A DNA stretch of 64,000 bases, from the IMG/VR virus record IMGVR_UViG_3300021963_000003, positions 1 to 64,000 of that record, one strand, 5' to 3'. Under the pieces are notes generated by a model. It searched no databases and was not told where the DNA came from. It worked only from the letters and a program-made list of their open reading frames with translations. Positions 40,975 to 62,225 of this stretch are shown piece by piece. How positions within the stretch are numbered: the first letter of the stretch is position 1; every line of letters starts with the position of its first letter. This DNA is from a virus. Made by a program: the position numbers and the translations under genes.

Positions 40975-42981
40975 TTATAGGAATATCTCCCTTACGTCAT
41001 ATAACTTTACTTTCTGTTCTGCCTTCTGAGCAAACTTTGACTTACTAGCCGCAATTAACGTATAACCTGCAGCCATCGCCGCATCAAATTTAGTTGTTTT
41101 ATTTATATTAAAGTGCAACCAGTCGTCTAATAATTCTGTAAAAATAACTTTCTTTAGGTTGTCTGTTATATAGGACTCCGTCTCTTCTGCTATCTGCTGG
41201 TGTGTCTTTACAGTTGCGGAAATACCGTACTTACTAGCATTAGGCATCTTTGTAAGAAATCTTTCATAACCCCTATATTCAAAATATTTAATCAATCCAA
41301 CCTTGTTGTCCTCAGACAGGACCTCGCATCCAAAAAAATGGGCGAGCTTAATCATGTCCTCGTAAAATATTTCTGCTTTGTCTGGTCGGTTAATGTACTG
41401 AACTAAAAACGTTTCACTCAGCTCGTCTATAGCGTCATACCTCCTATATGCGTAGCCTGCTCCATCTGAACGCTCATTACTTGTGGTGATGGAATGGTCA
41501 AAGGGGTCAACTGCAATGGCGTACTTCTTTGTTTCCTTGGGTACTTTTTTAGTGCCGTAGTCCTCAACTTGGTTATAAAAGTTGTAGTCGTGGACATTGG
41601 CTTTGGAGTGGACCTTGAATTTACCGTTTGCTTTTTCAACAAACAGAACCCTTGTGTCCCTCTCTCCCTTTTCCCAAACAAAGTCCCCTTGCAAATATAG
41701 TTCTTTTTTATCAATCCAAGTGATACTTTCTTTTTGTCTATTTAACGCAAGTGCGTCGTAGATACAACTCTCTGCTTCAGAAAAGAAAGCCTCCTCAATA
41801 GTAAAGGGATTCTTGCGTATAAAGGAAGCTAAAGCCCTGTTGTCGTCCATCAAGGCGTTACGCTCTCCCATATAAAACTCCTTAGCTTTTTCTTCGTCAG
41901 GGATGCCGTACTTGTCGTAGAACAAGGTCTTATAGGCGGGCATAAAGTACTGATATAGACCCGACTTGGTTCTACCGTTAGTGTTCTTCTTTCTTTGGTC
42001 AGATGCCTGCCATAGAGCCTTGAAGGATTCCCCTCCGTCTTCCATCTCCTCAACAGTTGTCGTATATAAAGCCTTGCCGATAATAGTCTCCTCTTGTTGC
42101 AAACAGAACTGAACAACTTGGTGACGCTCATACACGTCAACGTTCTTTGTCTTACCCGCCTCGTCAGCTAGGTAGCGATGTAATTTCATTCCGTCGTAAG
42201 CAAACTTGTCAGAGGACTTGAATGTTATCATTGACTCTAGCTCTACCTTCTCGGTAAAGATGTCGTCGTTAGCCCCGCGTTTGTTTGTCTTAAAAAACCT
42301 AAGCTCCCCTTTGGGGGTCATGCCCTTTTCGGTGTCGTAGATGGGTATAAAGAAGTCGGGTAGGTATTTAAATGGCATAATCACTCCCTTAGCAAACACG
42401 TTGTCCTTGGCGTCGTCAAATGTCTTGCTTTGGATACCTGCGTTCTTGTTCTTGCTTCTAGAGGTCAACTCAAATAAGAAAGCTCCTGCTCTCATCGTCT
42501 TTCCCTGACGACGCTTGGTGACCTCAATCATCCCCATACAATTCGGGTCTTGGATGCAGTACTCTAAAAAATAAAAGAAATGCAAGTCGGTAATCCTAAA
42601 CTCGGGGTATCCAACGTCTAGCTTCCAATGGGTCAAGTAGAAGTAATGGAGCCCTGTTAGATATGTTCCCCTTCCGTTGTTGTAAAACCACAAGCCATTA
42701 AGCCTTCGGTCCCATTCTTGGTTACGATAGTTCTGAAGCTCAGGGTTGTAGTACTCAGGATTATTCTTTTGAACTAATATCTCCTTCTTTCTCTTAGTCT
42801 CGTAGTCAGCAGGTGGCTGAGGTCTTTCCCAATACTGATAGGCAGGCTTAGCAGAACGGCTAAGTATATCCCTCTCCTCCCACTTGTTTGTCATTATGTT
42901 AAAGACAACCCCGTTAGGGGGGATATTAATTTTTATCCCGTTTAATTCTATCTCTCTATTCCTCTTGTGTTTACGATACAT
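40975..42981 (-). CDS. terL: Terminase large subunit
   Basis: This encodes 668 residues. Near residue 157, EVTKRRQGKTMRAG is a Walker A-like loop. Near 273, RYLADEAGKTKN is the Walker B with the catalytic Glu. Near 490, KYAIAVDPFDHS carries the first nuclease Asp, and a DNKVGLI motif near 560 could supply another acidic residue. The product is the packaging motor with ATPase and nuclease halves. It starts one base after the upstream gene's stop and lies directly before portal, the typical order. The sequence is unlike the common lambda or T4 types, so family-level assignment is open. Confidence 0.93.
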   Translation of the reverse strand: MYRKHKRNREIELNGIKINIPPNGVVFNIMTNKWEERDILSRSAKPAYQYWERPQPPADYETKRKKEILVQKNNPEYYNPELQNYRNQEWDRRLNGLWFYNNGRGTYLTGLHYFYLTHWKLDVGYPEFRITDLHFFYFLEYCIQDPNCMGMIEVTKRRQGKTMRAGAFLFELTSRSKNKNAGIQSKTFDDAKDNVFAKGVIMPFKYLPDFFIPIYDTEKGMTPKGELRFFKTNKRGANDDIFTEKVELESMITFKSSDKFAYDGMKLHRYLADEAGKTKNVDVYERHQVVQFCLQQEETIIGKALYTTTVEEMEDGGESFKALWQASDQRKKNTNGRTKSGLYQYFMPAYKTLFYDKYGIPDEEKAKEFYMGERNALMDDNRALASFIRKNPFTIEEAFFSEAESCIYDALALNRQKESITWIDKKELYLQGDFVWEKGERDTRVLFVEKANGKFKVHSKANVHDYNFYNQVEDYGTKKVPKETKKYAIAVDPFDHSITTSNERSDGAGYAYRRYDAIDELSETFLVQYINRPDKAEIFYEDMIKLAHFFGCEVLSEDNKVGLIKYFEYRGYERFLTKMPNASKYGISATVKTHQQIAEETESYITDNLKKVIFTELLDDWLHFNINKTTKFDAAMAAGYTLIAASKSKFAQKAEQKVKLYDVREIFL

Positions 42982-42982
42982 C

Positions 42983-43543
42983 TTATATGTTGGCTATTGA
43001 CTCTGGGGTGTAGTTGATAATCTTGTCCTTCTCCTGCTTGTTGTCCCCAAAGATTTTGTCCTCGTAGGACTCAATCCTTTTTATGATTGCGTCGCACTCT
43101 GCCATTAACTTACTTTTAATTTCAAGGGCTTGCAACTTGTCCTTGTCATTCTTGAAATTTACGATAGGAGTCAAAAGTTCTTGTTGGTATTGCCACAGTA
43201 CTTCCTCGTTGGCTGCGAGAATAGCCCATACCTTCGACGATTGGTAGCGGAGGTATACGTTGATATACCCAAGCAATTTATCGTTGCTTAAATCAAAGAT
43301 TTCGAGCTTGCCGTCTTTTATGTTAGCCATCTCAGCACACTCCTCTTTTCTTTCTACGATGTCAGGTATCTTTAATCGCAGTGGAGACTTGATATCATAA
43401 AGCAATGCAATGTACCTAAGCATCGGAATGTCGTCGGCTGAGACCTTGCCAAATATCTGGTTAACAAGTGGGTTCTTGTGAAGGTCCTTGTCGTTCACGG
43501 GTAGTAGGATGCTGTTGTATTCTGAATCTGTAAATATTGCCAT
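42983..43543 (-). CDS. Putative terminase small subunit
   Basis: This encodes 186 residues. It is mostly helical with a long C-terminal coiled region (KLQALEIKSKLMAECDAIIK). It has no recognisable HTH, but it precedes the large terminase by one base and lies next to a GC-rich island and a repeat array. Position is the main reason for the call. The leader just before the ATG (TTAATTTATTAATCTTATGG) resembles those of early genes. Confidence 0.55.
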   Translation of the reverse strand: MAIFTDSEYNSILLPVNDKDLHKNPLVNQIFGKVSADDIPMLRYIALLYDIKSPLRLKIPDIVERKEECAEMANIKDGKLEIFDLSNDKLLGYINVYLRYQSSKVWAILAANEEVLWQYQQELLTPIVNFKNDKDKLQALEIKSKLMAECDAIIKRIESYEDKIFGDNKQEKDKIINYTPESIANI

Positions 43544-43571
43544 AAGATTAATAAATTAATTACTGTTTTGT

Positions 43572-43612
43572 CGGAGCTCGCCGAACCGCGCCGCCGCCCG
43601 CCAGTTCCTCTT
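43572..43612. other. GC-rich island upstream of the terminase genes
   Basis: About 40 bases (cggagctcgccgaaccgcgc and ccgccgcccgccag) are almost pure G and C in an otherwise AT-rich genome. The start, TCGG AGCTCG CCGA, is a small palindrome. It contains no reading frame and lies 30 bp upstream of the putative small terminase. A packaging recognition site or a structured RNA is possible, and nothing else in the sequence decides between them. Confidence 0.5.
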
Positions 43613-43672
43613 TGCTTTGCTAACTAGATTTGGTGTTTAGTAAGACTGCGTCTTCCTTTTCAAACTCAAAAA

Positions 43673-43749
43673 AAAATCGCAACTCTATTGTTCTTTTTTA
43701 CTATTATTCTTTATTACTATTATTCTTTATTACTAAGGGGTGCGATTTT
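43673..43749. repeat. Inverted repeat enclosing tandem 16-bp repeats
   Basis: AAAATCGCA (43673-43681) and TGCGATTTT (43741-43749) form a 9-bp inverted repeat. Between them, TTACTATTATTCTTTA is repeated at 43698-43713 and 43714-43729, followed by TTACTA. The right arm of the inverted repeat runs straight into the 15-bp iterons. Confidence 0.8.
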
Positions 43750-43797
43750 CGAACGTTCGATTTTCGAAGGTTCGATTTTCGAACGTTCGATTTTCGT
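43746..43797. repeat. 15-bp palindromic iteron array (locus A)
   Basis: Three tandem copies of TTTTCGAACGTTCGA lie at 43746-43760, 43761-43775 (C changed to G in the centre) and 43776-43790, followed by TTTTCG. Each contains the 12-bp palindrome TCGAACGTTCGA. The same 15-mer appears, in reverse orientation, inside the replication initiator gene at 51598-51665. The array fits an initiator or repressor binding site. Confidence 0.85.
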
Positions 43798-43833
43798 ACT
43801 ATGGTATTTTGTTTACATTGATACATTTTATAC

Positions 43834-44496
43834 CTATACGCTTTCTAACTCCATCTTTTTACCAAATATATCAGATTGCCTAACTGTAAAATATTCTACA
43901 TCTTCAATCTTATTTATAAAATTTGAGTTCTTAGCAAGTACTACCGTATCACCCTGCTTTACGTCCAATTCTTTTTGATTCAACAAGGGCTTGCCAATAT
44001 AAGAAAGCTTCGCAAACTTGACAGACTTCTTCTTTTGAATTGAAGTGACAAGACCCGCGCCGCTTAGTGTCGCCTGTATCGTGCGACCCCCGACCTCCAC
44101 GCTCTCAAACTCTTCCTCCTCTTCAACAATCTGACTACATAAAGTCCACCCTCCAACAGGTAATATATTGCCGTCCCTAACAACACAAAAAATCCAATAG
44201 TAAGGTACTTTATAACTATTGCCGTATACACAATTTGTTTCATCTGACGTAGTTAAATAATGAAAATAAACTTTGTCTCCAACTCTCACCTCCTGCTCTA
44301 TCTCAAAGCCTTCCTCGTTGTAGCACTTGCCTTGCGGGATAGCCTCGACTATACCATAAATTCTTGCGTGATGTGTTGGGTTAAAAAGAGGGTCAATAAA
44401 CACCTCTAAACTTCCGTGTTTGTAGGTCGAGTCTAATGCCTCCTCAACGCGTACGATGACAGCATTTACTGCTGATTGCTTGATGTTGTAGTTCAT
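43834..44496 (-). CDS. GroES-like co-chaperonin candidate
   Basis: This encodes 220 residues from MNYNIKQSAVNAV. It appears as two GroES-type beta barrels in tandem. The first (EQEVRVGDKVYFHYLTTSDE followed by WIFCVVRDGNILPVGGWTLC) and the second (LDVKQGDTVVLAKNSNFINK followed by VEYFTVRQSDIFGKK) each have the GDxVxF/L ... xxxVRxxDIxG pattern. Phage co-chaperonins help fold the capsid protein with host GroEL, and this gene heads the head module. A start 33 codons upstream is possible. I chose this ATG because a promoter core (TAACTTTG) lies at 44526-44533, inside that extension. The function is inferred. Confidence 0.6.
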   Translation of the reverse strand: MNYNIKQSAVNAVIVRVEEALDSTYKHGSLEVFIDPLFNPTHHARIYGIVEAIPQGKCYNEEGFEIEQEVRVGDKVYFHYLTTSDETNCVYGNSYKVPYYWIFCVVRDGNILPVGGWTLCSQIVEEEEEFESVEVGGRTIQATLSGAGLVTSIQKKKSVKFAKLSYIGKPLLNQKELDVKQGDTVVLAKNSNFINKIEDVEYFTVRQSDIFGKKMELESV

Positions 44497-44525
44497 CTTA
44501 TTAATTATTGTCTGGTTTGTAAATT

Positions 44526-44533
44526 CAAAGTTA
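44526..44533 (-). promoter_or_regulatory. -7 promoter element for the leftward (late) operon
   Basis: The minus strand reads TAACTTTG, matching TAnnTTTG, 29 bp upstream of the GroES-like ATG. A TTG occurs only about 12 nt upstream, closer than the usual spacing, so the -33 match is poor. Confidence 0.5.
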
Positions 44534-44888
44534 TATAATATTTCCCAATATATCCACCATACTTTGCGTCTAAGCAACTTAAATAGTTTAGACAATAGAT
44601 TGCCTTAAGTTTGTTTTTTAGTAGCGTAGGGTTGTCGAAAAAGGGTTATATATATTATCCGACACCAACCAAATGAAAACGACAAACGACATTTATTTAC
44701 CGAGTGGGGTCAACTTCCTTAATCCAAATTCCAAAATTCCTAGGACATTTAGATAGTTGTCTAATTAACTAATTCTATACTTAGCCATTTTGCTAATTAG
44801 TTGTTTAGCTAACTATATATTTAGTCAATCATCTAACCAAAAGAAAAACTATGTTACCATATATTAGAAAGGAAATCTATATTTCTAT

Positions 44889-45788: not shown

Positions 45789-46742
45789 ATGGCAACATAC
45801 ACAAAAACAGAAAAATTAACTCAGTCGCAAATCATTGACAGCATCAACGACAGGGTAATCGCAGGACTACAGGACAAGGGACTTAGTTGGTTCAAACCAT
45901 TTAAGGACGGCGTAACAGGTAGCTTTCAAGCTCTCTCCGCATATGGCAGGGCTTACAAGGGTTGGAATCAATTTATCCTTTCGTCTATTGCTTTAGAGCG
46001 CGGCTGGGTCAACAAGTGGTACACCTTTGCACATATCCAAAAATGCGAGGGCTACATTAATAAAGGCGAGTCAGGTACTAACATCTTTATGTGGCAAATA
46101 AGCTACGCAGTTGAGCGTAACGGAAAGACCACGTTTTACCCTGTGTTAGCGAGCGTACCTGACGCCGACAAGAAAGACGCTAAGAAAGTATTCTACCTTA
46201 AGCAGTGGAAAGTATGGTCTATATCACAGACTAACATACCACACAGCACACCTAACCTGCCTGTGACAGAGGAAGAGACGGAGCTTGACTCCCACGCAGA
46301 CGCTGAGGCTATCCTGCAGGGTTGGGGCAAGGTTGTCCCTACCAAGCACACGAATCAAGGGCGGGCTTATTACTCCCCGTCTGCTGACTTTATCCATATG
46401 CCTGAAAAGACATCTAAGATGTGGCAGTCAAGCGGTGACTATTACAAGGTATTCTTTCACGAGGCTATCCACAGCACAGGTCACAAGTCTAGACTTAACC
46501 GCCTTGAGGAGACCGCGCGATTTGGTAACGAGGAGTACAGCAAAGAGGAACTAGTGGCGGAACTTGGAGCGTTGTACCTAGAGACTATCACAGGAATCGA
46601 TTGCCTAGTGGACGACTTCAAGAACAGCCAAGCATACATCAACGGATGGATTAAGGCAATCGCTAACGACAAGAACCTTATAATGCAGGCATCTAAGAAA
46701 TCACAAGAGGCTGTAGCTTTAATATTATCTAACGTAAACTAA
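45789..46742 (+). CDS. ArdC-type anti-restriction protein
   Basis: This encodes 317 residues. The N-terminal half (residues about 8-150, RVIAGLQDKGLSWFKPFKDG, then GYINKGESGTNIFMWQISY) fits the ssDNA-binding ArdC N-terminal domain. The C-terminal half has a zincin site, VFFHEAIHSTGHKSRLNRLE near residue 224 and EELVAELGALYLE as the third-ligand helix. ArdC proteins protect entering DNA from host restriction. It is the first early gene after the structured RNA, in keeping with a role at entry. Confidence 0.9.
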   Translation: MATYTKTEKLTQSQIIDSINDRVIAGLQDKGLSWFKPFKDGVTGSFQALSAYGRAYKGWNQFILSSIALERGWVNKWYTFAHIQKCEGYINKGESGTNIFMWQISYAVERNGKTTFYPVLASVPDADKKDAKKVFYLKQWKVWSISQTNIPHSTPNLPVTEEETELDSHADAEAILQGWGKVVPTKHTNQGRAYYSPSADFIHMPEKTSKMWQSSGDYYKVFFHEAIHSTGHKSRLNRLEETARFGNEEYSKEELVAELGALYLETITGIDCLVDDFKNSQAYINGWIKAIANDKNLIMQASKKSQEAVALILSNVN

Positions 46743-47104: not shown

Positions 47105-47123
47105 GTTCACGTTCCACTATCAT

Positions 47124-47163
47124 CTTTAACCTCACGATGTATAGGCAATCGTTATATTATATT
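47124..47163 (+). promoter_or_regulatory. Repeated early leader, copy 1
   Basis: CTTTAACCTCACGATGTATA then GGCAATCGTTATATTATATT lead directly to the ATG at 47164. CACGAT/ATCG-type bases can form a short hairpin (CGAT ... ATCG) with GTATAGGCA in the loop. Near-identical copies lie before the genes at 47716, 48266 and 49213. The apparent start MYRQS inside it is probably not used. Confidence 0.75.
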
Positions 47164-47394: not shown

Positions 47395-47670
47395 ATGAAA
47401 ACACCATTTGAACAAGCAGTTGAACAAGTTAGACAAGGTCGAATACAAGCACCCAAAGTATTAATGGGGAAAATGGATATGGATTACTTTGCCTATCAGC
47501 TAGTAGTCCATAAATATAATCTAGGAATTATGGCTATGGGGATGACGTGTACAGGCGTCAAGTTTACAGACATCAAGAAGTACTACGGACTCAAGGGTCG
47601 GTCAGCTAAGGCTTGTAAGCCTGAGATTGAAGAGTTATTTAATAAGTACAAATCAAGTTTAAATCAATAA
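47395..47670 (+). CDS. Hypothetical early protein, 91 residues
   Basis: The sequence MKTPFEQAVEQVRQGRIQAP is followed by a helical region and a Lys-rich C-terminus (LKGRSAKACKPEIEELFNKY). The K-x-x-D-I-K-K-Y-Y-G-L-K-G stretch suggests a small DNA-binding or HTH-type fold, but I do not recognise a family. It lies between two leader-bearing genes. Confidence 0.55.
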   Translation: MKTPFEQAVEQVRQGRIQAPKVLMGKMDMDYFAYQLVVHKYNLGIMAMGMTCTGVKFTDIKKYYGLKGRSAKACKPEIEELFNKYKSSLNQ

Positions 47671-47672
47671 AC

Positions 47673-47715
47673 CTTTAACCTCACGATGTATAGGCTAATC
47701 GTTGTATTATCTAAT
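47673..47715 (+). promoter_or_regulatory. Repeated early leader, copy 2
   Basis: TTTAACCTCACGATGTATAG, then GCTAATCGTTGTATTATCTA before ATG at 47716. Compared with copy 1 a T is inserted in the loop, while the ACGAT and ATCGT arms are kept, which suggests the stem is conserved. Confidence 0.75.
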
Positions 47716-48222
47716 ATGAGAACAATTGAAATTAACCTTTACAAGTTCGACGAACTTAATGAGCAGGCTCAAGCTAAAGCAATTAAAGCCCATCAAGAAA
47801 ATACCAATTATGATTGGTGGGATTCTATCGAGATTAATGCAGAAGAAAGCGGTGTTATTATAGAATCCTTTGACACAGACAAGGAAGACATAAGCGTATC
47901 ATTCAAGTGGGAGGCTCACGATGTAGCTAACGCTTTGGTTAAGTTTTGGGGAGCAGATAGCGACATAGGTAAGATATGTCAAACGTTCCTTGATAAAAGA
48001 AATGTATTATATAAAAAGTATGCGGGAGATGAGGCTAGTACATACAATGAGAAGTTGTATGAATCGGAAGATGAATTGGTGGATGATTTCCATGCCGACG
48101 TGTCCCATTACTTTCTTAAGCAATTAAAGAATGAGTTAGAATGGATTGAATCCGACGATTACGCAAGGGGATACCTAAGCGATATGGACTACGACTTTAT
48201 GGAAGACGGAACTGAATATTAA
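47716..48222 (+). CDS. Early protein with stability-system-like N-terminus
   Basis: This encodes 168 residues from MRTIEINLYKFDELNEQAQA, then KAIKAHQENTNYDWWDSIEI. The pattern LYKFDELxEQAxxKAIxxHxE...WW occurs in phage and mobile-element proteins annotated near toxin-antitoxin stability systems, but the function is not established. The rest is acidic and helical (YLSDMDYDFMEDGTEY at the end). A longer start 10 codons upstream would begin inside the repeated leader and is rejected. Confidence 0.6.
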   Translation: MRTIEINLYKFDELNEQAQAKAIKAHQENTNYDWWDSIEINAEESGVIIESFDTDKEDISVSFKWEAHDVANALVKFWGADSDIGKICQTFLDKRNVLYKKYAGDEASTYNEKLYESEDELVDDFHADVSHYFLKQLKNELEWIESDDYARGYLSDMDYDFMEDGTEY

Positions 48223-48223
48223 A

Positions 48224-48265
48224 CCTTTAACCTCACGATGTATAGGTCAATCGTTGTATTATATT
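48224..48265 (+). promoter_or_regulatory. Repeated early leader, copy 3
   Basis: CCTTTAACCTCACGATGTAT, then AGGTCAATCGTTGTATTATA precede ATG at 48266. Again ACGAT and ATCGT are conserved and the loop differs, as in copies 1 and 2. Confidence 0.75.
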
Positions 48266-49163: not shown

Positions 49164-49179
49164 TCCCACTAGCAACAAT

Positions 49180-49212
49180 AACCTCTCGATGTATAGGCAA
49201 TCGTATACTAAA
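49180..49212 (+). promoter_or_regulatory. Repeated early leader, copy 4 (diverged)
   Basis: AACCTCTCGATGTATAGGCA, then ATCGTATACTAAA before ATG at 49213. The core CGATGTATAGGCAATCG is kept, while the 3' extension differs from copies 1-3. Confidence 0.65.
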
Positions 49213-51288: not shown

Positions 51289-51324
51289 ATGAGAAAGACA
51301 CCGATTAATAAATTAATCTTATGA
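51289..51324 (+). CDS. Possible 11-residue upstream leader frame
   Basis: ATG 51289 reads MRKTPINKLIL and its TGA overlaps the ATG of the replication initiator (ATGA). The sequence is also the hairpin leader (GATTAA/TTAATC), so the frame may be incidental. A translated leader would couple to the initiator. Confidence 0.25.
   Translation: MRKTPINKLIL
51303..51320 (+). promoter_or_regulatory. Start-codon hairpin of the initiator gene
   Basis: GATTAA TAAA TTAATC TT, perfect 6-bp stem ending two bases before ATG 51321. It matches the leader family seen at 3551, 54794 and 61847. Confidence 0.6.
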
Positions 51325-52010
51325 GCAAGACTAAAATAAGCGGACACTTTGGGCAGGCACCTAACGAACTACTAAACGACCCTGCTATAAGTTTAAAGGC
51401 TAAGGGGCTTTATGTTTATATGCAATCTAAGCCCGACGATTGGGTGTTTTCTCTTGACAGGATTTGTTCACAAAATAAAGACGGCAAGGCGTCGGTTCGC
51501 AACAGCATTAATGAGCTATGCGACGCGGGGTTCTTGTCTAAAGAAAGGCTGAATAAAGAAGAGGGAGGGACTATTTATTTATATAGACTAACAGACCCAT
51601 CGTTCGAAAATCGAACGTTCGAAAATGCGACGATGGGAAAATCGAACGTTCGAAAATCGAACGACTTAGTAATAAAGAATAACAGCAAGAAAGAAATAAT
51701 AGAAACAAAGATAGTAGATGACCGATTCGAAAAGTTTTGGATTCTATACAACAAGGAGATTCAAAAGGACAAGTGCTATAGCGAATGGAAGTTTATAAAC
51801 ACAATAGACAAGGACAAGATTCTTAAGACCCTACCGCTATACATCGAGTCAACTCCAGATGTACAATTTAGAAAGCACCCATTGACCTACCTAAGAAACA
51901 AGGCTTGGTTAGACAAAGTCTTTATTCCTAAAAGCCAAAACCAAGACGCGAAAGCAACTCCAAGACCCGCCGAGCCCGCCGACAGAATTATTGTACCTGA
52001 TAACTATTAA
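51321..52010 (+). CDS. Replication initiator (HTH, DnaD/O-like) containing iterons
   Basis: This encodes 229 residues. The N-terminal part (residues about 8-95) fits a winged-helix initiator domain (GQAPNELLNDPAISLKAKGL then YVYMQSKPDDWVFSLDRICS). The C-terminal half (RFEKFWILYNKEIQKDKCYS then EWKFINTIDKDKILK) resembles the helicase-loading part found in phage replication proteins. The middle (residues about 93-115) is encoded by a run of 15-bp iterons, as in the lambda O gene where the origin lies within the initiator gene. The DnaB gene follows 12 bp later. Function is inferred from domains and order. Confidence 0.8.
   Translation: MSKTKISGHFGQAPNELLNDPAISLKAKGLYVYMQSKPDDWVFSLDRICSQNKDGKASVRNSINELCDAGFLSKERLNKEEGGTIYLYRLTDPSFENRTFENATMGKSNVRKSNDLVIKNNSKKEIIETKIVDDRFEKFWILYNKEIQKDKCYSEWKFINTIDKDKILKTLPLYIESTPDVQFRKHPLTYLRNKAWLDKVFIPKSQNQDAKATPRPAEPADRIIVPDNY
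51598..51665. repeat. 15-bp palindromic iteron array (locus B)
   Basis: Copies of TCGAACGTTCGAAAA at 51611-51625 and 51642-51656, with partial copies at 51601-51610 (CGTTCGAAAA) and 51657-51665, separated by TGCGACGATGGG. This is the reverse complement of the locus A repeat and encodes residues around FENRTFENATMGKSNVRKSN of the initiator. Likely replication origin. Confidence 0.85.
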
Positions 52011-52022
52011 TCCAAAAAGAGA

Positions 52023-53450
52023 ATGAAGAACACACTTGTTGACACAATGCTAGAGGACGACGTTATTAGCTACCTACTAGAACAAACACACTACATTAAA
52101 GAAGCTAATAAAATAATAGATGCCGACTCGTTTACTAGCACACTAGCTAGGGCGTCATACGTTGCGATGGTTGAATTATCTCAGGTCAGCAATACGTTCA
52201 CACGTTTCGATGTATTTCGTGTGCTTAAATCAAAAGAATCGGAGTTAGGCGTTGACACCTCTGCGGTACTAAAGATGATGAGCAAGAGAATATTTGACTT
52301 GACGGACGTATGCTTTCAGTTGAAGGAGCTTGAGGTCAAGCGTAACATTGCGGGCATCATATCTAGGGTAAACTCTCAGATACTTAACGGCGAGGACTCG
52401 GCTATGATTCAGTCTACTTTGTTTAGTGGAGTTGATTCGTTGCAGGCAGAGAAGACCAACGAGGAGGTTACGTCTATCAAGGACATATACGACAACGTAA
52501 TCAAGGACTTGGGCGACAACGCGGGAAAGAACAAGTTCTCAGGCATCGACACAGGAAGCAGGCTACTTAACTACACGTTAGGTGGATGGCAGAGCGGTAT
52601 GATAGTAATCGCGGCTCGACCTTCGATGGGTAAGACTATTGTAGGCTTGGAACACGCTAAGGCAGGGGCTAAGTCTGGGGCTAATGTATTGTTTCTTTCA
52701 TTAGAGATGCCAAAGGAGTCCTTGTTGTATCGAGTTATCTCGTCTGAGGCAACTGACTATAAGTACTCAGACTTGGGGGCATACAGGATAAGCAAGGAAG
52801 ACATCGATATAATTTCTAAGTCAGACGCTAGGGGTCTAAGGGACTTGCCCATATTCTTTTATGATTCAGATAACAGGGATATGAACTATCTTTCCACTAT
52901 CATCACCGCTGAGTGCAGGAAGAACAAGATAGACCTAGTCATCATAGACTATATGCAACTAATCAGGGACAATCAGATTAAAGACCAGAGCGACTTTGCT
53001 CAGGTGTCATCTGTATCAAGTAAGATTCAAAAGCTAACACGTAAGCTCAACATCCCTATCATTGCATTGTCTCAGCTATCACGTTCAATAGAGTCTAGGA
53101 CTGACAAGCGACCAAGTTTATCTGACCTGCGTTCAAGTGGCAACATCGAGCAGGACGCGTCTATTGTCATAGGGCTATACCGCCCTGACTACTACGCAAT
53201 GTCAGAGGCAAGAGCTCAGAACCTACCTGACCCCGAGTTTACCCACGAGCTAGACTATGTGATACTCAAGAACAGGAACGGACGCACAGGTTCAGCTATT
53301 AGGTATTGTGACGTGATGACCAACAGAGTAAGCGACGACAAGGAGACCTTGTTTAGGTTCACCCAACCTGATATATTATTTAGGGACTCGGTGATTAATA
53401 CGATTGACAACGGATTTGATAATAACACCATAGTAGAAACCCCATTTTAA
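52023..53450 (+). CDS. dnaB: Replicative helicase, DnaB type
   Basis: This encodes 475 residues. The C-terminal RecA-fold domain has Walker A ARPSMGKT near residue 199, LSLEMPKESLLYRV, Walker B LVIIDYMQLI near 305, and IIALSQLSRSIESRTDKRPS then LSDLRSSGNIEQDAS, all standard for DnaB. The N-terminal 150 residues are the primase/loader-binding helical domain. It unwinds DNA ahead of the host polymerase. The gene starts 12 bp after the initiator and ends two bases before the MTPKEKA gene array. Confidence 0.97.
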   Translation: MKNTLVDTMLEDDVISYLLEQTHYIKEANKIIDADSFTSTLARASYVAMVELSQVSNTFTRFDVFRVLKSKESELGVDTSAVLKMMSKRIFDLTDVCFQLKELEVKRNIAGIISRVNSQILNGEDSAMIQSTLFSGVDSLQAEKTNEEVTSIKDIYDNVIKDLGDNAGKNKFSGIDTGSRLLNYTLGGWQSGMIVIAARPSMGKTIVGLEHAKAGAKSGANVLFLSLEMPKESLLYRVISSEATDYKYSDLGAYRISKEDIDIISKSDARGLRDLPIFFYDSDNRDMNYLSTIITAECRKNKIDLVIIDYMQLIRDNQIKDQSDFAQVSSVSSKIQKLTRKLNIPIIALSQLSRSIESRTDKRPSLSDLRSSGNIEQDASIVIGLYRPDYYAMSEARAQNLPDPEFTHELDYVILKNRNGRTGSAIRYCDVMTNRVSDDKETLFRFTQPDILFRDSVINTIDNGFDNNTIVETPF

Positions 53451-54771: not shown

Positions 54772-54811
54772 ATGCTCACCTTCGGTTCACACCGATTAAT
54801 AAATTAATCTT
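54772..54811 (+). promoter_or_regulatory. Two-hairpin leader of the 106-residue gene
   Basis: TCGG TTCACA CCGA forms a 4-bp stem, and GATTAA TAAA TTAATC (54794-54809) a 6-bp stem, ending TT before ATG 54812. A short frame (MLTFGSHRLIN) is also present. Sequence and layout match 61825-61864, where stem bases differ but pairing is kept. Confidence 0.6.
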
Positions 54812-55132
54812 ATGACAATAGAAACTAAATTTAACATAGGCGACTACATTTACTTTGGAAACGAGGAATCATGTAATCAGGGATATGTGAAAGATATTAA
54901 CATTACCTTTTTTGGAGGCAATCACATAATAAGATATACAGTTGACACAATGTTTAATATTCTACCAAGATTAATTACCAACGAAAAAGATAGGTATAGA
55001 GACTTTGATGAGTCAGTGCTTCATTCATCTCCTAATGAATTATTGCAAAGGCAAATCAAAAGATATGAGGTTAAGATAAAGAATATGAATGACAAGATAG
55101 AAGAAATCAAAAAACAAATTAAACCTCTATAA
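54812..55132 (+). CDS. Hypothetical early protein, 106 residues
   Basis: MTIETKFNIGDYIYFGNEES, a small beta domain (GYVKDINITFFGGNHIIRYT), then a Lys-rich coiled coil (RYEVKIKNMNDKIEEIKKQI). A coiled-coil protein with a KOW- or SH3-like N-terminus is one reading. The start follows the two-hairpin leader. Confidence 0.55.
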   Translation: MTIETKFNIGDYIYFGNEESCNQGYVKDINITFFGGNHIIRYTVDTMFNILPRLITNEKDRYRDFDESVLHSSPNELLQRQIKRYEVKIKNMNDKIEEIKKQIKPL

Positions 55133-55134
55133 GA

Positions 55135-55908
55135 ATGAATGTATTTAAAGAGTTAGCAAAGTTTAATATCATTAAGTACCACGACGCACCCCATAAGTAT
55201 TTTATCGGAGAGCAGGAACTTATATCAGGTACTGCATTTATTGAGCAGTTCAAAGTAAAGTTCGACAAGCAGGGCACTGCAACCAAGTCAGCCAAGAAGA
55301 AGAATATTCCTGTCGACGAGGTGCTATCTGATTGGGCATACAAGGGAGACTTTGCTCGCACAAAAGGAACGCTCCTGCATAACTACGCTGAGAACTATTG
55401 GCAGAACAAGGTGTATCCGTACGACGACACTATCTACACAGAAAGATTCGGCGAGGGGGCAATGGCTGAGAGATTAGATGCGTGCAAGGCACACTTCCAT
55501 AACTTCTATTTGAAGGCTAAGAAGAACCTAATACCTGTAGCAATGGAGCTAGTTATTGGGGATGCCGAGATAGGGATTGGTGGGATGGTTGACTGTTTGT
55601 TTTGGAACGACAAGTACAATGAATATCAAATCTGGGACTACAAGACTAACAAGGAAATCAACGAGTTCTCTAAGTTCAGGACACGACTCAAAGCACCCCT
55701 AAATTTCTTGCACGAGTGCGAGCTTGAGACCTACTCAATACAACTAAACTTGTACAAGTATATCATCCAAAAGAATACCGACATCAAGATAGGGAAGTGC
55801 TTTCTGGTGCACCTGCACGAAGAACAGGAGGACTACAACATCATTGAATGCAAGGAGTACCAAGAAATAATACAACTACTTATCAACTACGTAAAGAAAA
55901 CTAAGTAA
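55135..55908 (+). CDS. PD-(D/E)XK exonuclease-like protein
   Basis: This encodes 257 residues. Motifs of the RecB/lambda-exonuclease-like fold: KGTLLHNYAE near residue 78 (helix before the active site), MELVIGDAEIGIGGMVDCLF near 138 with Glu/Asp, QIWDYKTNKEI with the Asp-x-Lys core near 170, and ELETYSIQLNLYKYII near 200. This fits a PDDEXK_1/RecB-type nuclease used in recombination or DNA end processing. The start follows the 106-residue gene by two bases. Confidence 0.8.
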   Translation: MNVFKELAKFNIIKYHDAPHKYFIGEQELISGTAFIEQFKVKFDKQGTATKSAKKKNIPVDEVLSDWAYKGDFARTKGTLLHNYAENYWQNKVYPYDDTIYTERFGEGAMAERLDACKAHFHNFYLKAKKNLIPVAMELVIGDAEIGIGGMVDCLFWNDKYNEYQIWDYKTNKEINEFSKFRTRLKAPLNFLHECELETYSIQLNLYKYIIQKNTDIKIGKCFLVHLHEEQEDYNIIECKEYQEIIQLLINYVKKTK

Positions 55909-58069: not shown

Positions 58070-58274
58070 TTTTGGTAGTAATACTACTGAGATTATATGC
58101 AATCGGGTATAGACATTTAATATTTTGAATAATTATACGCTTTAAGGTATAATTAACACACAACATTATTTTATAATTAACCCACAAAAAAAGCAAAGGT
58201 ATAGCTTAACAAAATCACAAAAAAGTAAAGGTGTAGCTTAAAAAAACAAAAAAATGCTCACCTATCGGCTCACA

Positions 58275-58323
58275 ACGTTTAATAAATTAATCTTATGAAT
58301 ACAACGTTTAATAAATTAATCTT
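58275..58323 (+). promoter_or_regulatory. Duplicated start-proximal leader
   Basis: ACAACGTTTAATAAATTAAT CTTATGA occurs twice in a row, 27 bp apart, the second copy ending at ATG 58324. The first copy also carries a start codon (58295) followed by a short frame. The stem bases are disrupted compared with other leaders. Confidence 0.6.
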
Positions 58324-58548
58324 ATGACAAAGAAAATTAAATTAATGCATTACCGACTAGACGACGAGGTCTGTGTCGTGGACTACAACGACTTAAAGGT
58401 TTCTTACTACGGAAAGAACGGGCATCACTACAACTTATTAGGGGCAGTGAGCGACAGAATTGAAGCTTTTTTAATGAGAAGAGGTTGGATTAAGACTACA
58501 GCAGCTACCTTTGCTAAACTAAAAGAGGAACTATATGAGGTGGCTTAA
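58324..58548 (+). CDS. Hypothetical early protein, 74 residues
   Basis: MTKKIKLMHYRLDDEVCVVD, YNDLKVSYYGKNGHHYNLLG then a helical tail. The start is the second ATG of the duplicated leader. Function unknown. Overlaps the next gene. Confidence 0.55.
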   Translation: MTKKIKLMHYRLDDEVCVVDYNDLKVSYYGKNGHHYNLLGAVSDRIEAFLMRRGWIKTTAATFAKLKEELYEVA

Positions 58549-61824: not shown

Positions 61825-61864
61825 ATGCTCACCTACGGCTCACACCGTTTAACAAGCTAAACTT
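61825..61864 (+). promoter_or_regulatory. Two-hairpin leader of the 51-residue gene
   Basis: ACGG CTCACA CCGT and GTTTAAC AA GCTAAAC (61847-61862) then TT ATG 61865. Equivalent to 54772-54811 with compensated bases. A short frame MLTYGSHRLTS is present. Confidence 0.6.
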
Positions 61865-62020
61865 ATGGAAAGAACATTTAATCAGGTGTACCAGCATATC
61901 TACAACCAACTAGATTTACACCACCAAACAAAAATACAGCAAGCTAAGGACAAGTTTGAGAAACAAAAGCAGGCTGAGAAAAACGAAAAATCAAATTATG
62001 AATATTATAAAAGATATTAG
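61865..62020 (+). CDS. Small coiled-coil protein, 51 residues
   Basis: MERTFNQVYQHIYNQLDLHH, then QTKIQQAKDKFEKQKQAEKN: Lys/Gln-rich helix. Overlaps the HTH gene by 23 bp. Function unknown. Confidence 0.5.
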   Translation: MERTFNQVYQHIYNQLDLHHQTKIQQAKDKFEKQKQAEKNEKSNYEYYKRY

Positions 62021-62225
62021 AACAGAGTTAGGGATGACCCAAGCAGCCTTTGCTAAGGTATCTGGATTCAATAAAGTACAGCAGGTATCAGGACTAGAGA
62101 ACAACGTAAAGGGCTTAGGGTTCTTCCTACTAAGTAAGATAGTAAGACACCTTGCCTCCAATGGAATTGACGCTTCACTTGATGTGATACTTACAGTCAA
62201 CCAAAAGAAAATAAGAATACATTGA
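61998..62225 (+). CDS. XRE-like HTH regulator, 75 residues
   Basis: MNIIKDIRTELGMTQAAFAK, then VSGFNKVQQVSGLENNVKGL: helix-turn-helix of the Cro/CI (XRE) type. A longer N-terminal extension upstream would overlap the previous gene further, so MNII is preferred. Likely operator-binding repressor or activator; the iterons are a candidate target. Confidence 0.75.
   Translation: MNIIKDIRTELGMTQAAFAKVSGFNKVQQVSGLENNVKGLGFFLLSKIVRHLASNGIDASLDVILTVNQKKIRIH

Follow-up and report, generated by a model that had tools for sequence, protein, structure and literature searches.

A Likely Second Copy of a Rep-Specific Origin Element Beside the Terminase Genes of a Probable Bacteroidota Phage

Organization of the Locus

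The window, meaning the whole stretch of DNA that was analyzed, comprises 64,000 of the 64,016 bases of a virus record. Its terminase large subunit (TerL; 40975–42981, minus strand; PHROG 6681, 2e-82) is about 31% identical to the TerL of Flavobacterium elemo phages, and a Bacteroidota phage is therefore likely; elemo phages are absent among the Rep homologues listed. Directly upstream of TerL lies a TerS-like gene (42983–43543, minus strand, 186 aa), assigned as the small terminase by position only, whose product has no Pfam or PHROG match and is 65–77% identical in relatives. A non-coding spacer (43544–43833, delimited from the ORF map and the sequence) separates it from the gene of a GroES-like co-chaperonin (43834–44595, minus strand; Cpn10, 4e-11). 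This spacer contains the element under study, and an array is present there in all relatives examined.

Where the initial annotation counted three copies of a 15-mer, the spacer holds two exact copies of TTTTCGAACGTTCGA (43746–43760 and 43776–43790), between them a third with one mismatch (43761–43775) and, in addition, a fourth, degenerate unit reaching 43804. As claimed, the units recur at a strict 15-bp period. The basic unit is better read as the 13-bp palindrome TTCGA-AAA-TCGAA, and the array as four such palindromes at 15-bp spacing (43741–43753, 43756–43768, 43771–43783, and 43786–43798, minus strand), two of them perfect and the others each carrying a single mismatched pair. These iterons are flanked toward TerS by an AT-rich block of three 16-bp repeats of the CTATTATTCTTTATTA type (43685–43732, minus strand), a putative DNA unwinding element defined by its repeat family and by alignment with the initiator gene. 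Taken together, the element (43685–43804) is non-coding, belongs to the late region, adjoins the TerS-like gene and TerL, and is organized like its counterpart in the initiator gene. Just upstream of the TerS-like gene, positions 43568–43615 stand out as the window's single stretch in which 30 bases include 23 or more G+C. A GC-rich block of the GGGACGCCGCGCCGCC type occupies the same spot in nearly all relatives (spacers of L013–L025 and L029) and is a candidate packaging site or terminator.

The replication initiation gene rep (51321–52010, plus strand, 229 aa) neighbors a gene for a DnaB-like replicative helicase (52023–53450, plus strand; DnaB_C, 8e-64; PHROG 19). Rep was identified by its matches to Pfam HTH_36 (3e-6, 27.4 bits, above the cut-off of 25) and to PHROG 270, replication initiation (E 6e-26 over aa 11–215), and by its AlphaFold model; matches to O-like PHROGs are weak only (391, 0.0013; 678, 0.0048). 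The model (mean pLDDT 67) consists of a winged helix (aa 8–92), a low-confidence linker (aa 93–129), and a helical C-terminal part, and the predicted helix at aa 56–68 is taken as the recognition helix. A fold search of the PDB gave 0 matches at E ≤ 0.001, the weak ones including the DnaD N-domain, the DnaB primosome protein, and RctB domain 1.

The same 15-mer does recur in reverse inside rep, as the initial annotation stated; the minus strand carries it exactly twice (51611–51625 and 51642–51656), with degenerate units alongside, and the spacing of these exact copies is 31 rather than the regular 15 of the spacer. The in-gene iterons (51597–51664, plus strand) comprise perfect palindromes at 51603–51615 and 51649–51661 with degenerate units between them, and on their DnaB side lies an AT-rich block (51665–51711, plus strand), again a putative DNA unwinding element, defined by alignment with the spacer. 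The codons of the linker modelled as disordered (51597–51707) coincide almost exactly with iterons plus AT-rich block, and in this model the DNA element appears to take precedence over the protein linker. The proposed lambda-O-like internal origin array in the initiator gene is thus supported.

Similarity and Genomic Context of the Two Elements

The two elements lie 8 kb apart in inverted orientation, with their AT-rich sides facing away from the 8-kb interval. Positions 43692–43804 match 51597–51711 over 115 aligned columns at 85% identity (E 8.7e-31). The similarity covers the iterons plus the AT-rich 16-bp repeats, so that the shared repeat, at about 115 bp, is larger than the 15-mer array first described. 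Chance repetition had been judged unlikely, and the scan of the window for TTTTCGAACGTTCGA with up to 3 mismatches bears this out: it returned 10 matches, against 1.42 ± 1.18 in 100 shuffles (maximum 5). No further cluster was detected in the 64,016-bp record. Two 18-mer matches (L010, L011) look like chance. Palindrome centers and spacings differ between the two copies.

Between the two elements, positions 45789–46742 encode an ArdC-like anti-restriction protein (ArdcN + MPTase-PolyVal). A repeated motif, ACACCGATTAATAAATTAATCTTATG, stands before several early genes (51298–51340, 54789–54831, 58272–58343, and 61842–61884), with a close variant ahead of the TerS-like gene, and is likely a shared promoter or ribosome-binding leader. 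Another intergenic motif of the early region, TTTAACCTCACGATGTATAGGC, occurs in four copies (47114–47152, 47663–47701, 48215–48253, and 49166–49204) and possibly represents a promoter family. In one relative (G012), homologues of genes from both window ends are no more than 3 kb apart, and the relatives vary in where their contigs end; the map is therefore probably circular or circularly permuted.

Diversity of the Arrays Among Relatives

Searches with TerL and Rep yielded 15 related contigs with both elements, among them near-duplicates such as G003/G004 and G005/G014. All 15 carry the array in the GroES–TerS spacer, inverted relative to rep and with the AT-rich sides outward. In 11 of 11 relative loci with both elements, the sequence outside rep that best matched its linker was the TerS spacer, on the opposite strand. 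In a check for host or prophage copies, no TerL relative was confirmed among the genome contigs.

The iterons themselves vary by phage: spacer palindromes of 16 bp have half-sites that include TGGTGT, TGGTAA, TGTCCC/TGCCCC, TGATGC, and TGCTAC, and more distant relatives have iterons of the TTGGA or CGTTCAAC types. In the L008/L009 lineage, the iterons within the gene belong to the TTGGA...TCCAA type. An AT-rich block is retained in the spacer of every close relative. Agreement between the two sites is not uniform. In G009 the spacer matches rep mainly over about one iteron and the AT-rich block, and in G017 (L064, 2895–3176 and 10001–10645) the spacer is only partly matched to its own Rep class. 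The Rep of this phage is nearly identical to that of G006, its spacer belongs mainly to the TGCTAC class with shared GGGGCA half-sites, and the mismatch possibly reflects a recent exchange of rep. Among phages with distant Rep homologues, a second copy was found in none of five, and the paired arrays are therefore a lineage trait rather than a rule of the family.

Covariation of Iterons with the Initiator

When every spacer was paired with its own rep, the summed score exceeded all 20,000 permutations. The correlations were computed on ten close genomes with TerL about 96% identical (mean difference 4%). Their p values are permutation-based and derive from few, non-independent genomes, which makes them strong but imprecise. 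Spacer iterons covaried both with their in-gene counterparts (r 0.71, p 0.0006) and with Rep aa 39–75 (r 0.59, p 0.0004). In the same ten genomes, no covariation was detected with TerS, TerL, the N-terminal 38 aa of Rep, or the Rep C-terminus, nor was any detected with GroES or with ArdC (the latter in seven genomes). Since neither GroES nor ArdC covaries, a swap of the intervening 8 kb is disfavored as the source of the covariation.

These data also bear on which protein reads the spacer. The initial annotation proposed as a binder the small HTH protein encoded at 61998–62225, and this protein (HTH_3) is a plausible DNA binder; the small terminase, whose gene adjoins the array, could likewise read it as a packaging site. 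The HTH orthologues, however, are about 97% identical across several unrelated iteron classes and show no correlation with the spacer iterons (r = −0.04, p = 0.55, eight genomes). TerS, besides lacking covariation, is 98–99% identical between phages with unrelated iterons (G002/G006 and G003/G013). Both proteins were rejected as readers, and recognition of the array by either of them is scarcely credible. Rep, on the other hand, likely reads both sites, judging from the sequence comparison, and the suggestion of a matching array 8 kb away, probably with the same reader, gains strong support from the covariation across relatives.

The same comparison was applied to the origin of the similarity. 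Against a spacer copy that is a functionless product of neutral recent duplication or of ongoing gene conversion, the AT-rich blocks resemble each other by locus (about 61 for the same locus across phages, and 32.3 for the two copies within a genome, not better than the 30.9 for other genomes). Iterons show the reverse and match within genomes (75.9 against 34.1). Selection through the shared reader, Rep, would account for this pattern, unlike copying of the whole element. The differing palindrome centers and spacings, and the persistence of the array in every relative with the spacer, also speak against a neutral copy. In its favor, one 6.3-kb contig (L071, 3982–5058) runs from GroES through spacer iterons directly into the C-terminal part of rep, a junction as expected from inversion between the two arrays. 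Whether a real recombinant or an assembly chimera, it indicates that recombination or misassembly between the arrays can happen. Overall, duplication or conversion without function is very improbable.

Proposed Mechanism and Alternative Roles of the Spacer Array

The window most probably contains two copies of one Rep-specific origin element, the spacer copy being a second Rep-bound origin or a replication switch. As envisaged, the origin element would combine an array of Rep iterons with an AT-rich unwinding block after it, and would be placed once in the linker codons of rep and once, inverted, in the spacer. The winged helix of Rep would bind the palindromic iterons at both copies, as the covariation suggests. 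At the in-gene copy, by analogy with lambda O and SPP1 gp38, Rep would melt the AT-rich side and load the neighboring DnaB, and theta replication would start. The spacer copy may act as a second origin similar to oriR of SPP1 or as a Rep-bound switch. Judging from the outward AT-rich sides, forks started there would travel to the left across the late genes and to the right across the early ones, in the direction of transcription on each arm. Cumulative GC skew has its minimum near 45–46 kb, a position confounded with the switch of gene orientation.

A spacer array that never fires is possible, though clearly the less likely reading: bound by Rep, it would form a roadblock, halting theta forks and setting off the change to rolling-circle (sigma) replication, which would yield concatemers for packaging. 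Such a model has been proposed for oriR of SPP1 (PMC6316719, PMC3485210), the array sits beside the terminase genes, and a phage exonuclease (PHROG 298) is encoded at 55135–55908 of the window. An AT-rich block would be superfluous in a roadblock but is kept in the spacer of each close relative; this objection is weak, as oriR of SPP1 keeps one too. The array could in principle serve as second origin and fork-stalling switch alike.

The location of the array directly upstream of the late operon would also suit a Rep operator that couples replication to terminase and late transcription, running leftward from the array. Four phased palindromes with an AT-rich block, in the layout of the in-gene origin, would be unneeded for this purpose, and such a role is unlikely.

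Two iteron arrays with one reader also recall copy control or origin pairing, both raised by the initial annotation, in which Rep would bridge (handcuff) the two arrays or be titrated by the second one, limiting initiation, as with incA/incC or crr of P4. Iteron plasmids do use handcuffing and titration for copy control. Neither process requires an AT-rich block, and tight control matters less to a lytic phage, which makes this explanation rather improbable. For the partition role suggested at the same time, nothing in the analysis provides support. The retained AT-rich block of the spacer instead would favor melting rather than a role limited to roadblock, operator, or titration site, in line with the preferred reading of a second Rep-bound origin or switch.

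On a broader scale, and more tentatively, the system may be a replicator of two inverted, outward-directed origins whose specificity has been switched repeatedly at both sites and in the recognition domain of Rep, while the flanking genes remained nearly identical. If this were true, it would point to selection on origin specificity, such as escape from origin-targeting nucleases, satellites, or Rep-titrating competitor phages (cf. PLE and Odn). The series of close relatives constitutes genetic evidence for one protein reading both sites and offers a ready-made set for decoding initiator specificity. It also opens to experiment the questions of why phages retain a second origin and what makes origin specificity change so quickly.

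Comparison with Known Systems

Lambda O resembles Rep in that iterons and an AT-rich block occupy the initiator codons between the DNA-binding and the helicase-contact parts (PMC3349717). Rep probably differs in belonging to another initiator sequence family, its matches to O-like PHROGs being weak. Lambda is not known to have a second matching array, unlike the phage described here. In satellite phage P4, as here, two distant iteron regions (ori and crr) are bound by one initiator; P4 alpha, however, is a primase-helicase, and neither P4 site is known to lie inside its gene.

Rapid joint change of origin and initiator specificity, as seen among these relatives, is known from the PLE satellites of Vibrio cholerae (PMC8263062). 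In PLE, the DNA-binding domain of RepA covaries with the ori iterons while its C-terminal part is conserved; specificity has been swapped repeatedly, and an origin-directed nuclease is thought to drive the switching of the RepA/ori modules (PMC8263062). PLE differs from the present case in having one intergenic origin and a RepA_N initiator, in being a satellite rather than a phage, and in that cognate specificity was tested experimentally (PMC8263062).

The closest precedent is the Bacillus subtilis phage SPP1, which in the literature searched is the documented case of a phage with a dual origin and one initiator. Its gp38 (G38P) binds oriL inside its own gene 38 and oriR in a spacer of the late region, and oriR-bound gp38 has been proposed to stall forks and lead to sigma replication (PMC6316719, PMC3485210). 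Both phages have origin-type repeats with an AT-rich block inside the initiator gene, a DnaB-type helicase encoded nearby, and a second, similar element in a late spacer, which in SPP1 consists of direct repeats and an AT-rich region about 12–13 kb away (PMC6316719, PMC3485210). The present phage differs in its palindromic iterons and in a host group that looks unrelated. Early and late genes are divergent here, whereas SPP1 transcribes nearly all genes in one direction, and no separate gp39-like loader was identified in our phage. The inverted placement of its two elements, AT-rich sides outward, is a possible further difference. No description of such paired origins in Bacteroidota phages was found in a literature search of incomplete coverage. 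The architecture is already known from SPP1; as far as could be found, what is new is the lineage of phages, the inversion of the pair with its outward-facing layout, iterons that are palindromic, and a natural series of relatives in which specificity has switched at both sites.
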